Assembly: GCA_000332255.1 (NCBI GenBank)
Contig: KB235926.1
Coordinates: forward strand, 2,086,797 to 2,150,796
Direction of reading: 5' to 3'
Origin: a cyanobacterium PCC 7702
Lineage (GTDB): Bacteria; Cyanobacteriota; Cyanobacteriia; Cyanobacteriales; Nostocaceae
DNA: 64,000 nucleotides
Made by a program: the position numbers and the translations under genes. This document shows positions 52,835 through 57,265 of the stretch, one piece after another. The notes below the pieces were generated by a model. The model saw nothing but the letters and a program-made list of their open reading frames with translations. It searched no databases and was not told where the DNA came from. How positions within the stretch are numbered: the first letter of the stretch is position 1; each line of letters opens with the position of its first letter.

Positions 52835-54064
52835 TTATCCAATCAATGCAATTTTCTGAGTCGGGACATAATTTGGCAAAACTTGATTTAGTTTCGCATC
52901 GGTTAGATGCATGTGACGTTCTAACACAGCAGAAATTACATCCCGAAAATCAGCGGTCACAGCTAAATCCCTCCCTTGATATAGTTGGTTGGTCGATAAA
53001 CCGGGCCATTCTCCGTAAACTTTACCACCCCGGACTTGTCCGCCCAGTATCCACATTACATTTCCATGTCCGTGGTCTGTACCGCCATTGCCATTCTCAG
53101 CTACAGTGCGCCCAAACTCAGACATAACCAAAATTACCGTACGGCTGTAGACTGAACCCAAGCCCTTGACCAAACTTACTAAACCTTGGGCTAATAGTTG
53201 TAAATTGCGGGCTAACTGTCCTTGAGTACCGCCTTGATTAACGTGGGTATCCCAACCACCCAACGCCATAAATCCCAACTCAATTCTAGGATCTTTGGCC
53301 ATAACTTGTGCTAAGCGTTGGGCATCTTTGGCAAAACCATAAGGTAGAGGAGCACCATTATTTGCCATGTTCATTTCTGCATCCAAGTCATGTTTTAATG
53401 CTTGATATGCTTGTCGTCCTTCTTGATAAGTTTGGCTTAAGGCATCCTTACCGCTGTAAAGTCGATCAAAGGCAGCTCTTATTTGCGGGCGGTCTAAAGG
53501 AAGGGGCTTGGTAGCAATTTTGCCAGATGGTAAATTAGCTACAGCCATCTGTCCAGACAAAATACGCGGTATGGTTGCACCCACGCTCACTGCTTGAATC
53601 GGTGTATGTCCGGAAAGAACGCCTAATAAGCGATTCATCCAACCATCGTGAGTGCTTTTTATACCTGGAGTACCGCTTTCCATGTAATCTTGAGCATCAA
53701 AGTGGGAGCGAGTGGGATCGGGAGAACCACTTGCATGCACAAAAGCAACGGTTCCCTGCTTCCACAGCGGTATTAAAGGAGATAAAGCTGGGTGCAAGCC
53801 AAAATGACCGTCTAAATCAATAACTCCTCCTTCCTCGCTAGGTCGGGGAATAGCAATCTGCGATCGCAGTTGGTAATAAGCCTTCTCAAAGTAAGGAACG
53901 ACTACATTTAATCCGTCTACTGCACCCCGCAGAAAAATCACAATTAATCGCTTTTGGTGATTCTTCGCAGCTAGGGATCTAGCTACCCAAGCATTTGTGC
54001 TTATAGCTGTTAAAGCACTGGCTGAAAATGCACCAGCGTGGAAAAGAAAATCACGTCTGTTCAT
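52835..54064 (-). CDS. DUF1501 protein, twin-arginine exported
   Basis: A 409-residue protein of the DUF1501 family, distantly related to alkaline phosphatase-superfamily enzymes. The N-terminus MNRRDFLFHAGAFSASAL is a Tat signal (RR), so it is exported folded, probably after cofactor or metal insertion. Core motifs are FLRGAVDGLNVVVP, GGWDTHVNQGG, VMSEFGRTVAENGNGGTDHGHG and WILGGQVRGGKVYGEWPGL, with His/Asp residues that could bind metal. Substrate unknown. It is the last gene of the sigma factor operon, 16 bp after the DUF1800 gene. The DUF1800-DUF1501 pairing is a common but unexplained gene neighbourhood. Confidence 0.88.
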   Translation of the reverse strand: MNRRDFLFHAGAFSASALTAISTNAWVARSLAAKNHQKRLIVIFLRGAVDGLNVVVPYFEKAYYQLRSQIAIPRPSEEGGVIDLDGHFGLHPALSPLIPLWKQGTVAFVHASGSPDPTRSHFDAQDYMESGTPGIKSTHDGWMNRLLGVLSGHTPIQAVSVGATIPRILSGQMAVANLPSGKIATKPLPLDRPQIRAAFDRLYSGKDALSQTYQEGRQAYQALKHDLDAEMNMANNGAPLPYGFAKDAQRLAQVMAKDPRIELGFMALGGWDTHVNQGGTQGQLARNLQLLAQGLVSLVKGLGSVYSRTVILVMSEFGRTVAENGNGGTDHGHGNVMWILGGQVRGGKVYGEWPGLSTNQLYQGRDLAVTADFRDVISAVLERHMHLTDAKLNQVLPNYVPTQKIALIG

Positions 54065-54080
54065 AGCAGGTGAACGGTAT

Positions 54081-55571
54081 TTAGCGATACATGAATTCCG
54101 GGCTGCCCAAGATGAGCGCTGCTCGTAACTGAACAGGACTGGAGGCGATGGCGCTGCGGGTTTTTTCAGAAAAAGAATTACCTAGTGTATTTGCTAATGC
54201 CGCGGCATCTACTAGTTGACGGCGTTGGGTGTGGTTTTGGTTGTTTAACAAACGTCCGCTTTCCAAAATTGTTGCCAAGCTCAGGCGACGAGTTATTGCA
54301 TCCGGATTTAACCATGCTTGTTGGGTGTTTTTGTAACCATCTGGTGTTTGACAACCGTACAAAGGCATGCCTAACTGTTGTAGTGTGGCAATCAAAGGTG
54401 TGAAGTTATGTACTTTTATTCCTGTCGCTCGCACCGCCGAAACTACGTATTCGTAGGGTGTTTTGAATTTAGCATGGAAATTTTGCGAGTTCCAAAATTC
54501 TGGACTGTGGAACAAGGTGTTTAAGACTTCTCGAATATTGCCATCAGTTGCCAAAAAGCGCTGTTGCAAACGTGCAACTAAAGTATCAGGAGGGCGATCG
54601 CTGACAAAATACTGAGCCAGTTGGTAGCTGATATGACGAGCAGTGGCAGGACTGCGGGCTAAAATATCCAAAGCTTGTTCAACTTCACCCTCACCACTAC
54701 CTTTAATTGTGTGTCCTAGGAAAACTTTATCGCTAAAATCGTGCCGCCGGGAATCAAAGTAAAATCCCGAACCAGTATCCGTGGCACTAGGACGGCGACG
54801 AAATCCCCAACCCGTGAAAATTCGTGCTAGCGCAATCACATCCTGCTGAGTATAACCGCCATCTACACCCAAGGTGTGCAATTCCATCAACTCACGAGCA
54901 TAATTTTCATTCAAACCTTGAAATTTACTGCGAGCACCGGGACTACCAGGAGCTGTGTTTTGCCAATTATCTAGGTAAAACAGCATTGCTGGATGACGAG
55001 CTGTTGCTTCTAATAACTGGCGAAAACGCCCCAATACGTAAGGTCTGATTGCTTGTTGCTCGTAAGCTCCTACCCACAGTCGATCTAGTCCTTTACCAGC
55101 ATAGACGTTGAAGTGGTTGTACCAAAAGTTCACCATCACTTCTTGAAGTTGGCGCGGACTTTCAATAGCTCGTAACAAACGTGCTTGCATTGCTTGTTGC
55201 ACCACCAAACGCGCCTTTTGACGAGTAGCTTGCTTTTGTTGGGGAGCGGGTTTTTGTCCAGATCGAACTGCTGCAGGACCGTATTCTTTGTATATTTGAA
55301 CTGGACTGAGACGTAGAGTCTGAAGTTGCTCAATTTGTTCGATTAACGTTTGCGGTTCGGGGATAGTTTCTGGAGAAAGTTGGGCTTGAATGTAACTTTC
55401 TATACCCATAGATTCCAGCTTCTCAATATCTCCCGGACGAGGTCCAAAGCTAAGGCGATTGAGAACGTGCAATACTTTTGGGTCTACAGTTGAATTAGCT
55501 GCACTGCCAGGATGAATTGTTGCCACTAAGACCAACAGCGACAATACCAAGTATTTGGGTTTGATACTCAT
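54081..55571 (-). CDS. DUF1800 family exported protein
   Basis: A 496-residue protein with a signal peptide (YLVLSLLVLVATIHPGSAA). The DUF1800 core carries LNRLSFGPRPGDIE, VNFWYNHFNVYAGK, GLNENYARELMELHTLGVDGGYTQQDV and ARIFTGWGFR, then FHSPEFWN and YEYVVSAVRATG near the end. The conserved NENYAREL-LHTLG block suggests a catalytic or ligand-binding helix pair, but no activity is established for the family. It is encoded 21 bp after the LTXXQ gene and 16 bp before the DUF1501 gene. Confidence 0.88.
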   Translation of the reverse strand: MSIKPKYLVLSLLVLVATIHPGSAANSTVDPKVLHVLNRLSFGPRPGDIEKLESMGIESYIQAQLSPETIPEPQTLIEQIEQLQTLRLSPVQIYKEYGPAAVRSGQKPAPQQKQATRQKARLVVQQAMQARLLRAIESPRQLQEVMVNFWYNHFNVYAGKGLDRLWVGAYEQQAIRPYVLGRFRQLLEATARHPAMLFYLDNWQNTAPGSPGARSKFQGLNENYARELMELHTLGVDGGYTQQDVIALARIFTGWGFRRRPSATDTGSGFYFDSRRHDFSDKVFLGHTIKGSGEGEVEQALDILARSPATARHISYQLAQYFVSDRPPDTLVARLQQRFLATDGNIREVLNTLFHSPEFWNSQNFHAKFKTPYEYVVSAVRATGIKVHNFTPLIATLQQLGMPLYGCQTPDGYKNTQQAWLNPDAITRRLSLATILESGRLLNNQNHTQRRQLVDAAALANTLGNSFSEKTRSAIASSPVQLRAALILGSPEFMYR

Positions 55572-55592
55572 AGATTCGTTTAGCTGCGGTAT

Positions 55593-56063
55593 TTAATTTT
55601 GGCGGCGAGGGCGTGAATTTTGCTGTTGCTTGTACATGTATTCCGCAAACTTCTGCCGTTGTTCTGGTGTTAAAATTTCTCTGATGGCAAGCGTATTTTC
55701 GAACTGAGCATCGGCAAGTTCTTGTCTGAGCGTCCTGACCTGATTATATTTGTCTTGAACTTGCTGTTTTGATGCCGTACTTGCCAATAAAGCTTGCAAC
55801 TGTTGCTGTGCTTGTCTTAAGGCCTGCCTTTTTTGGGCAATTTTCCCTCGGGATTGCTTGCGAATAGCTTGAATTTGCTGAATTTGGTTGGGTGTGAGGT
55901 TTAAATCCTTGAACCACCCACGGGGACTCGGAAGCGGACGCGCAGAGTTGGTGGAGTTTTGGGCAATAACGGAAAATGAAGGCAAACTTGGCTTAGCAAC
56001 AGCGATCGCGCCACTGCAAGCAACAACAGTCACTGCAATTATAGGAACCTGCCGAAGTAACAT
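55593..56063 (-). CDS. Spy/CpxP-like periplasmic LTXXQ protein
   Basis: A 156-residue exported protein with an N-terminal hydrophobic segment ending AVAKP, and two LTXXQ-type motifs, LNLTPNQIQQIQAIRKQSR and ILTPEQRQKFAEYM, separated by a long Gln-rich helix. This is the fold of Spy and CpxP, cradle-shaped chaperones, and of the metal sensor CnrX. In this operon it lies between the anti-sigma-like and DUF1800 genes. It might sense envelope stress or metal and feed the ECF sigma factor, or act simply as a chaperone. The C-terminus is Gln/Arg-rich. No metal-binding His or Met cluster stands out. Confidence 0.8.
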   Translation of the reverse strand: MLLRQVPIIAVTVVACSGAIAVAKPSLPSFSVIAQNSTNSARPLPSPRGWFKDLNLTPNQIQQIQAIRKQSRGKIAQKRQALRQAQQQLQALLASTASKQQVQDKYNQVRTLRQELADAQFENTLAIREILTPEQRQKFAEYMYKQQQNSRPRRQN

Positions 56064-56088
56064 AAGAACTTACTTTGCCTCCCGTAAT

Positions 56089-56421
56089 TCAATATGTTAA
56101 AAGAAAAACTTCTTCTTCGGGATTTTCACTTACTGTAGATTGCCAGTTACTTTCCATAAACTTTTCTACACTGGCAAGTTCGGCTGCCGTTGGTCGAGCA
56201 GGTATGAAAACCCGGTAACCAACTATAGCTAAGGCTAATCCCGCCGCCGCCACAGATGGCACTAGCCACAATCGCGCACGCTTGCTCGTGGTAGGTAGGC
56301 GATAGACTTTTACCTTCTGTAAAATTTGCTGCTCCAAATCCGGTGCAGCTGGCGGAACTTGCGGACGATGTTGGCAAAGAAAATTAACTAAATTGCTATC
56401 ACGATCGGAAAATTTAGTCAT
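56089..56421 (-). CDS. small single-pass membrane protein, probable anti-sigma factor
   Basis: 110 residues: a cytosolic N-terminal half (SNLVNFLCQHRPQVPPAAPDLEQQIL), a single transmembrane helix at about residues 50-70 (LWLVPSVAAAGLALAIVGY), and a short outer tail. Position directly after an ECF sigma gene with a 4-bp overlap (56418-56421) is the classic arrangement for an anti-sigma factor held at the membrane. No zinc-binding HxxxCxxC motif is present, so it would be a non-ZAS type. Function is inferred from context and topology. Confidence 0.65.
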   Translation of the reverse strand: MTKFSDRDSNLVNFLCQHRPQVPPAAPDLEQQILQKVKVYRLPTTSKRARLWLVPSVAAAGLALAIVGYRVFIPARPTAAELASVEKFMESNWQSTVSENPEEEVFLLTY

Positions 56422-57056
56422 AGCTGCACTCCCTGTTGCACCAAAAATTGACGCATGGCAGCACGAGCATAAAAAAGACGGGATTTCACCGTTCCCAAAG
56501 GAATATCCAAAATATCAGCTATTTCTTTTTGCGATATTTGTTCGAGATCGTGCAAAACCAAAACCGTGCAATGATCAAAACTTAGGGATGACAGTCCTCG
56601 CTGTACCAAATCTTGATAGTGCATGCTTATTAAATCTGGCGCTTGTTGTTGGGTAGGAGTTCTTTGTTGCAACAGCTGCAACTGCATTCGTCCCTGAACA
56701 GTAGCTTGTCGGTAATCACAAGCAACATTCCAGGTGATTCTATACAGCCAGCTGGAAAATTTTGCCGTTCTGCGAAACTTGGGTAAACCTTTCCACGCTC
56801 GCAAAAATACCTCCTGCACCAAATCATCCAAACAAGAGGGACCGCACAATTGATAAAGGATTGACCTTACTTTTTGCTGATGGCGACGATAAAGCTGACC
56901 AAAGCTTTGGGTATCTCCCTGCAGGCATTGTTGAACTAGGTAGTTATCAGCTTTGCTTTCCGATTTATGATGAAAGTAATCTTTGTTTGAAGCCCTAATT
57001 GGCACAACTAACACCTGAGGAGTCCTCCTCCACCTGTATGCGCTGCTTTTATACAT
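56418..57056 (-). CDS. ECF-family RNA polymerase sigma factor
   Basis: A 212-residue extracytoplasmic-function sigma factor. Region 2 runs through LYRRHQQKVRSILYQL, DDLVQEVFLRAWKGLPKF and SWLYRITWNVACDYRQ (core binding and -10 recognition). Region 4 is ISQKEIADILDIPLGTVKSRLFYARAAMR (-35 recognition helix-turn-helix). A Gln-rich linker joins them. The first 35 residues are basic and may be non-essential. It heads a five-gene minus-strand operon with the probable anti-sigma, LTXXQ protein, DUF1800 and DUF1501 genes. It likely drives its own operon, and the promoter should lie between 57057 and 57265. Confidence 0.9.
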   Translation of the reverse strand: MYKSSAYRWRRTPQVLVVPIRASNKDYFHHKSESKADNYLVQQCLQGDTQSFGQLYRRHQQKVRSILYQLCGPSCLDDLVQEVFLRAWKGLPKFRRTAKFSSWLYRITWNVACDYRQATVQGRMQLQLLQQRTPTQQQAPDLISMHYQDLVQRGLSSLSFDHCTVLVLHDLEQISQKEIADILDIPLGTVKSRLFYARAAMRQFLVQQGVQL

Positions 57057-57265
57057 TCAGACCCGATCGCCGTGAAAAAGGTTCAAAGGATTTTTGAGGA
57101 GTACTAATGTTCGTACAGGGAGGGATGGACCCTTTCTCCACAAGGCATATAATGGTCGGGTAGGGCGATGAAATGCTATAAGTTGAATTGTTACCAAGCA
57201 AAAATAGATAGAGGTTTTTGACCATCCCGGCTGCCATCTCAAATTAACTTTTAGCTTTTACGGAT

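Follow-up and report, generated by a model that had tools for sequence, protein, structure and literature searches.

The window, a stretch of 64,000 nucleotides from the cyanobacterium PCC 7702, contains five open reading frames (ORFs) that lie head to tail on the minus strand. They encode a sigma factor of the extracytoplasmic function (ECF) type, a small membrane protein that is predicted to be its anti-sigma factor, an LTXXQ protein of the Spy/CpxP type, a DUF1800 protein and a DUF1501 protein. The features of the locus are given below with their positions in the window and the evidence for each.

57057..57086, minus strand: ECF-type promoter element TTGAACC-N17-GTCTGA (exact TGAACC-N17-GTCTGA at 57085-57057)
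57056-56418, minus strand: ECF sigma factor, ORF as listed (Sigma70_r2 and r4_2)
57024..57029, minus strand: AGGAGG, likely ribosome-binding site for GTG 57014 (direct reading of the sequence)
56418..57014, minus strand: ECF sigma factor with the start revised to a predicted GTG (Pfam, NCBIfam PRK12518, promoter position)
56089..56421, minus strand: single-span membrane protein of 110 residues, predicted anti-sigma factor (4-bp overlap with sigma, synteny)
55593..56063, minus strand: predicted exported LTXXQ protein of the Spy/CpxP type (PF07813, E 1.8e-11; profile match to Spy)
54081..55571, minus strand: DUF1800 protein with a hydrophobic N-terminus, predicted to be exported (PF08811, E 7e-146; hydropathy)
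52835..54064, minus strand: DUF1501 protein with a twin-arginine motif and, by model, an alkaline-phosphatase/nucleotide pyrophosphatase/phosphodiesterase (NPP) fold (PF07394, E 3e-41)

The start of the membrane protein gene (56421) overlaps the end of the sigma gene (56418) by 4 bp. The following genes are separated by gaps of 25 bp (anti-sigma/LTXXQ), 21 bp (LTXXQ/DUF1800) and 16 bp (DUF1800/DUF1501). The initial annotation had described a five-gene operon on one strand; its families, coordinates and gaps of 16–25 bp are all reproduced, as is the 4-bp overlap of sigma with a small protein that has one hydrophobic span. This layout is beyond chance, since the order sigma, anti-sigma, LTXXQ is found at the majority of the sigma loci sampled, and several lineages share all five genes in this order. 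Scans of the operon for internal sigma-70-type promoters and terminators gave consensus matches at or below the level of shuffled sequences.

The sigma factor has the ECF architecture. Sigma70_r2 matches residues 55–116 and r4_2 residues 151–201, while Pfam reports no match to r3. The protein scores 275 bits against NCBIfam PRK12518 (cut-off 208). The listed start codon, ATG 57056, abuts the -10 part of the promoter element at 57085-57057. Because of this contact, translation probably starts at GTG 57014, which is preceded by the AGGAGG at 57029-57024. The first possible start of two homologues (loci L037 and L066) gives the same 'MLVVP' sequence as GTG 57014.

The conservation of the regulatory genes was examined at 75 loci selected for carrying the sigma family of the window: the window itself, three relatives in which DUF1800 is linked to sigma, and 71 others. 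A partial match (genome G217) and a pseudogene (G223) were left out of this set; the match in G223 (G223:C1:1385702-1386193) is a decayed copy with eight in-frame stops. A homologue of the 110-residue protein follows sigma at 74 of the 75 loci, and at 70 an LTXXQ homologue is found no more than 2.5 kb after sigma. DUF1800 is found beside sigma at four. In turn, DUF1501 adjoins DUF1800 at 28 of 33 loci (the fragment L068 excluded), and one of the five misses, L064, lies near a contig end. Since the anti-sigma and LTXXQ genes are almost constant companions of sigma, DUF1800 is rare there and DUF1501 stands beside DUF1800, the operon is in sequence terms composed of two units, a conserved three-gene module and a separate DUF1800-DUF1501 pair. 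The expected conserved synteny therefore holds for the module, and the complete five-gene neighborhood is confined to a minority of sigma loci. Nine loci from named cyanobacterial records gave similar counts (anti-sigma 9, LTXXQ 8, DUF1800 2). These are the first nine of at least 80 loci, titled cyanobacterial and with an identity of at least 54%; the other 71, at 38% or less, were left aside. The nine are not independent of the main sample, as L295 and L175 appear to be one contig.

The predicted anti-sigma factor contains a single hydrophobic span, preceded by positive charge. Among its 74 homologues, the hydropathy of the span is at least 1.4 in 58 and the charge is positive-inside in 70; the window protein shows both properties. 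A 4-bp overlap of the anti-sigma start with the end of sigma is present at 58 of the 74 loci. Conserved residues are found before the span (F14 in 74, P23 in 73 and E30 in 71 of 74) as well as after it (E86 in 68, F88 in 67 and W93 in 74). A profile of the family gave no credible match to sequences in the PDB.

A search of all pairs of 4-mers upstream of sigma gave GAAC-N18-GTCT as the best pair. It is present at 65 of 74 loci, compared with 0.25 expected from first-order Markov shuffles. L178 (G064), which lies below the family cut-off and has no anti-sigma gene, belongs to the 75 loci but not to these 74. The fuller consensus is TTGAACCTTT-N14-GTCTAAA. The initial annotation had proposed looking for an ECF-type motif upstream of 57056; it is present at 57085-57057 and conserved at the sigma loci. 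The element is predicted to be the GAAC/GTC-type ECF promoter of the sigma gene itself. In the genome of the window (4.9 Mb) the only place with the full consensus is the one ahead of this sigma gene, and no further place is found at one or two mismatches. At three mismatches there are 34 places, which is not above the 65 of a reversed-pattern control; with the spacer one base short, 23 places are found at three mismatches and the window site is missed. With a single full-consensus site in the genome, the simplest reading is that this sigma factor would be devoted to its own operon. A shorter exact pattern was also counted. In 23 sigma-positive genomes it matched 47 times, spread over 21 of them (reversed control 16). 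In 23 genomes of the window's family without a sigma match it matched 10 times, spread over nine (control 19). The two sets also differ in family.

Other genes adjacent to the element were read by eye in some genomes, and none recurs except Spy-like genes and group-2-like sigma genes. The element lies upstream of group-2-like sigma-70 genes at L199 (G054) and L201 (G393), which would mean a sigma cascade. At L179 (G050) an exact copy belongs to an additional Spy-like gene that is not part of the sigma operon. Two further exact copies are present on G058:C63 downstream of sigma/anti-sigma, in the vicinity of a Spy-like gene and of an ORF whose leader is similar. At L188 (G044) an ORF that resembles, by eye, an efflux periplasmic adaptor has the promoter pattern 32 bp ahead of it.

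DUF1800 loci without a sigma gene beside them offer a separate view of the pair. The DUF1800 loci, among them the 33 examined for DUF1501, were drawn from 60 near relatives and a 386-genome sample of the phylum, later joined by 388 genomes of the order. At the unlinked loci L040, L041, L065 and L067 the exact core TGAACC-N17-GTCT is found 66–90 bp before the first aligned DUF1800 residue. The distance is 213 bp at L060, where the alignment starts late. A weight matrix was built from the 65 sigma sites only and used with a score threshold of 15. Over 958,622 positions (L035-L068, both strands) eight sites score at least 15, three at sigma and five just before DUF1800. In sigma-positive genomes, 11 of 55 DUF1800 loci are linked to sigma. 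Of the 44 unlinked ones, 12 have a site of at least 15 within 450 bp, so that linkage or element is found at 23 of 55. The corresponding number in sigma-negative genomes is 4 of 58 (Fisher p 1e-5, and 0.006 for the unlinked loci alone, relatedness being ignored). Loci rather than genomes are counted here: some genomes contribute two copies to the 58, and the fragments L063 and L068 are also among them. The site of G279 prints as 15.0 yet lies below the threshold, and at a threshold of 12 the unlinked count is 13 of 44. Fewer than 260 bases upstream of DUF1800 were available to scan in G610, G583 and G670. G552 was scored as linked by coordinates, and its stretch did not yield the sigma gene. 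L274 (G540) was dropped for want of a DUF1800 match. Partial matches were left out except for G409 and G199 (L063 and L068), and six full-length places were left out, one copy each in G553, G594, G604, G670, G612 and G636.

In the sample of the order, DUF1800 is present in 109 and sigma in 211 of the 388 genomes, and 11 linked loci were seen altogether. Linked loci are distributed over families f1, f12, f18 and f57, and two named records contain them as well. On a tree of 53 DUF1800 proteins the linked state requires seven changes, at least five of them forced by well-supported branches. The linked locus L037 and the unlinked L039, with a site at -71, are sisters and have a common threonine dehydratase-like neighbor (by eye). 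This would fit a loss or gain of the three module genes (sigma, anti-sigma and LTXXQ) in the space between promoter and DUF1800. L044 retains an LTXXQ match and the pair without a sigma or anti-sigma match. Because the element recurs before unlinked DUF1800 genes and the window genome has a single consensus site, the window sigma factor probably targets the pair directly.

Some individual loci deserve mention. In L064 (G037) DUF1800 is preceded at about 24 bp by a 35-residue fragment that resembles the anti-sigma protein (E 0.011) and may be the remains of a lost sigma module. In genus g193, three loci (L225, L227 and L244) carry sigma and anti-sigma with the promoter element about 1.1 kb before DUF1800, and no LTXXQ gene was detected between them by tblastn with the window protein as query. 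In G480 and G491, also of g193, DUF1800 is equipped with an element of its own, and the stretch examined contains no sigma gene. At L065 (G026) and L039 (G027) the element precedes DUF1800 in genomes without a sigma match at 1e-20; G027 is a one-contig genome.

The DUF1800 protein scores 487 bits against PF08811 (gathering score 26.1). Its predicted model is of high confidence (predicted local distance difference test, pLDDT, 89.8). Compared as a whole and not domain by domain, the model has no match in the PDB at E 0.001 or below, and none of 949 aligned chains reaches a Z-score of 5. The sole strong match in a viral structure library is another DUF1800 protein. Profiles of the DUF1800 and DUF1501 families gave nothing credible against PDB sequences. 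The model of the DUF1501 protein (pLDDT 79.9; best Foldseek E 2.9e-6), on the other hand, aligns with nucleotide pyrophosphatase/phosphodiesterase over 246 residues (VIA-align Z 18.6, root-mean-square deviation 3.2). DUF1501 thus models as an alkaline-phosphatase/NPP superfamily fold. Eight residues, which may include the two-metal catalytic ligands usual in this superfamily, are invariant among 25 sequences (D50, S120, H121, D272, H274, E316, D330 and H331). The label of twin-arginine translocation (Tat) refers to an RR motif read from the sequence and a TAT_signal match below the cut-off. An exported, possibly metal-dependent enzyme pair had been suggested for these two genes; the suggestion gains support in its DUF1501 half, from a model of metal-hydrolase type.

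The LTXXQ protein has a hydrophobic N-terminus and both LTxxQ-type motifs. It exceeds the cut-off of PF07813 with 45 bits and also that of Metal_resist (PF13801; 36.4 bits vs 29.2), the former being the higher score. Residues L54, L56, Q60 and Q135 are present in 70 of 70 homologues. Compared with the PDB, a profile of the family matches Spy (3oeo) with E 1.8e-9 and ZraP (3lay) with E 1.3e-4; the best of the CnrX entries has E 0.16. After residue 25 the window protein contains no His, no Cys and one Met. One His column is common among the homologues (48 of 70) and is occupied by Tyr in the window protein.

Taken together, the locus is most likely an autoregulated envelope-stress sigma switch that also drives DUF1800 and DUF1501 (probability roughly 0.7). 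The membrane protein would tether the ECF sigma factor to the inner membrane, its N-terminal part (F14, P23, E30) binding sigma. The periplasmic Spy/CpxP-like protein would report the state of the envelope through the periplasmic tail of the anti-sigma factor, which carries the invariant Trp (W93). A disturbed periplasm would free sigma for transcription from TTGAACCTTT-N14-GTCTRAA. This promoter would drive the sigma operon itself and hence DUF1800 and DUF1501. A helical DUF1800 protein, predicted to be exported by the Sec route, and a Tat-exported DUF1501 protein of the alkaline-phosphatase/NPP fold may then act jointly on the cell envelope. The reading is built on sequence: gene content, the three-gene module, the conservation of the promoter, the reuse of the element at some unlinked DUF1800 loci and the single site in the genome. 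From these we infer that this sigma factor reads the element, and likewise the binding of sigma, the sensing step and the function and chemistry of the pair.

Several observations weigh against this reading. No DUF1800 gene lies beside sigma at 71 of the 75 sigma loci. In sigma-positive genomes, 32 of the 44 unlinked DUF1800 loci have no site of at least 15, and four sigma-negative loci (G616, G446, G026 and G027) carry one. The relatedness ignored by the Fisher test matters, as 5 of the 12 element-bearing unlinked loci come from one genus. Furthermore, the 110-residue protein has no Pfam match and exceeds no curated family cut-off in Pfam or NCBIfam; its anti-sigma matches below the cut-offs have E 8.8e-4 (NCBIfam antisigma, 19.3 bits vs cut-off 100) and 0.013.

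The alternative that survives best concerns the sensing step and falls somewhat short of even odds. The LTXXQ protein may be an induced periplasmic chaperone and not a sensor, with stress being sensed by the anti-sigma factor or through its proteolysis. In Escherichia coli, Spy is such an induced chaperone, and Spy and CpxP are under the control of two-component systems. The window protein shares the two LTxxQ-type motifs and the match to Spy, and differs in being encoded in a sigma operon. A chaperone role is favored by the Spy-like genes with their own element copies at L179 and in G058 and by the three linked g193 loci at which tblastn detected no LTXXQ. The position of LTXXQ after anti-sigma at 70 of the 75 loci fits a partner, although an effector would look alike.

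It is unlikely, though less so than the explanations that follow, that another RpoE-like ECF sigma factor, for instance SigG, reads the promoter and that the window sigma gene is itself a target. For SigG, a 2021 paper gives predicted motifs of the GGAAC/GTC kind, and for SigH extended versions of them (PMC8155712). The sites in G026 and G027, where no match to the window sigma is found at 1e-20, point in the same direction; another sigma factor may read the element there. Against this stand the presence of the element before this sigma gene at 65 of 74 loci and its higher frequency before DUF1800 in sigma-positive genomes. SigG (Slr1545) is cotranscribed with the downstream gene for its binding partner SapG, which resembles the window arrangement (PMC2758279). 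SigG differs in being among the sigma factors listed for PCC 7120 and in being essential to PCC 6803; the excerpt of that paper names no LTXXQ or DUF1800/DUF1501 partner (PMC2758279).

SigH of Synechocystis (Sll0856) is of ECF type, the mapped start of its gene has an RpoE-type promoter, and it is listed as absent from PCC 7120 (PMC2758279); the window sigma factor is matched in only 2 of 35 relatives of the same family. Judging from this distribution among genomes, the window sigma factor is perhaps of SigH type. No SigH-controlled genes were known in 2009 (PMC2758279), and a mutant of sigH is reported to have coped with the growth and stress conditions to which it was exposed (2010 review, PMC3264485). 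For sll0856, ratios of 1.89 and 1.61 are given in an ethanol study (PMC3564720), and its induction by sulfur starvation is late (PMC2491639).

The initial annotation had drawn a parallel to the CnrH-CnrY-CnrX system. In a metal sensor of the CnrYXH or ZraP type, the metal-bound LTXXQ protein would release sigma. The CnrYXH system of Cupriavidus metallidurans indeed comprises the same three kinds of component, an ECF sigma factor, a short membrane anti-sigma factor and a periplasmic protein of the LTXXQ/Metal_resist type. Its gene order is cnrYXH, which differs from the sigma-first order of the window and from the one that the annotation gives for Cnr. The metal site of CnrX has His ligands. 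Because the window LTXXQ protein has neither His nor Cys past residue 25, a CnrX-type His site is absent from its sequence. Spy is a far better profile match than ZraP or CnrX. Additionally, copper lowers sigH of Synechocystis, the type to which the window sigma factor perhaps belongs, to 0.30 (PMC4182526). The metal-sensor reading was set low on account of the missing residues and the match to Spy, despite the Metal_resist cut-off passed and the ZraP match, and is improbable.

Least probable of all is that DUF1800-DUF1501 is an unrelated passenger downstream of the sigma module by chance: its rarity at sigma loci and the few linked loci among many genomes with either gene would fit, but in several families the element stands directly before DUF1800 genes that are not linked, and just under 1 Mb of the same loci holds no comparable site elsewhere. 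In addition, linked proteins are dispersed across the tree of DUF1800.

The control of an exported DUF1800/DUF1501 pair by a sigma/anti-sigma/periplasmic module, as first proposed, is consequently backed by a conserved promoter and by the reuse of its element at some unlinked DUF1800 loci. The regulatory reading is better supported than at first, through this reuse and not by analogy to metal sensors. The same pair has been described beside bacterial chitin synthases, where it is predicted to form one operon and its DUF1501 protein has a Tat motif (PMC5122149). The excerpt of that paper names no sigma factor, and no chitin synthase domain is present among the seven window genes scanned. Papers that mention DUF1800 or DUF1501, judged by titles, abstract openings and excerpts of one of them, report no sigma link. 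The type of promoter motif is already in print; for the DUF1800/DUF1501 target no mention was found in the excerpts. Plus-strand genes flank the operon, a PF03601 gene convergent with DUF1501 and a tRNA_Me_trans gene (MnmA type) divergent from sigma.

A more specific picture is tentative, and its parts are rather less likely than not to hold jointly. The pair may be the dedicated envelope-stress output of cyanobacterial SigH-type factors, wired either by joining the operon or by a copy of the promoter. DUF1800 may be an exported enzyme or scaffold with a fold that has no solved relative, and it may work with an NPP-like DUF1501 hydrolase on a phospho- or sulfo-polymer of the surface. In some species, including that of the window, one operon may be the whole regulon of the sigma factor.

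The predicted conserved link between sigma factor and target makes both the sigma factor and the pair directly testable. Furthermore, it suggests a stress context in which the substrate of DUF1800 and DUF1501 may be found.

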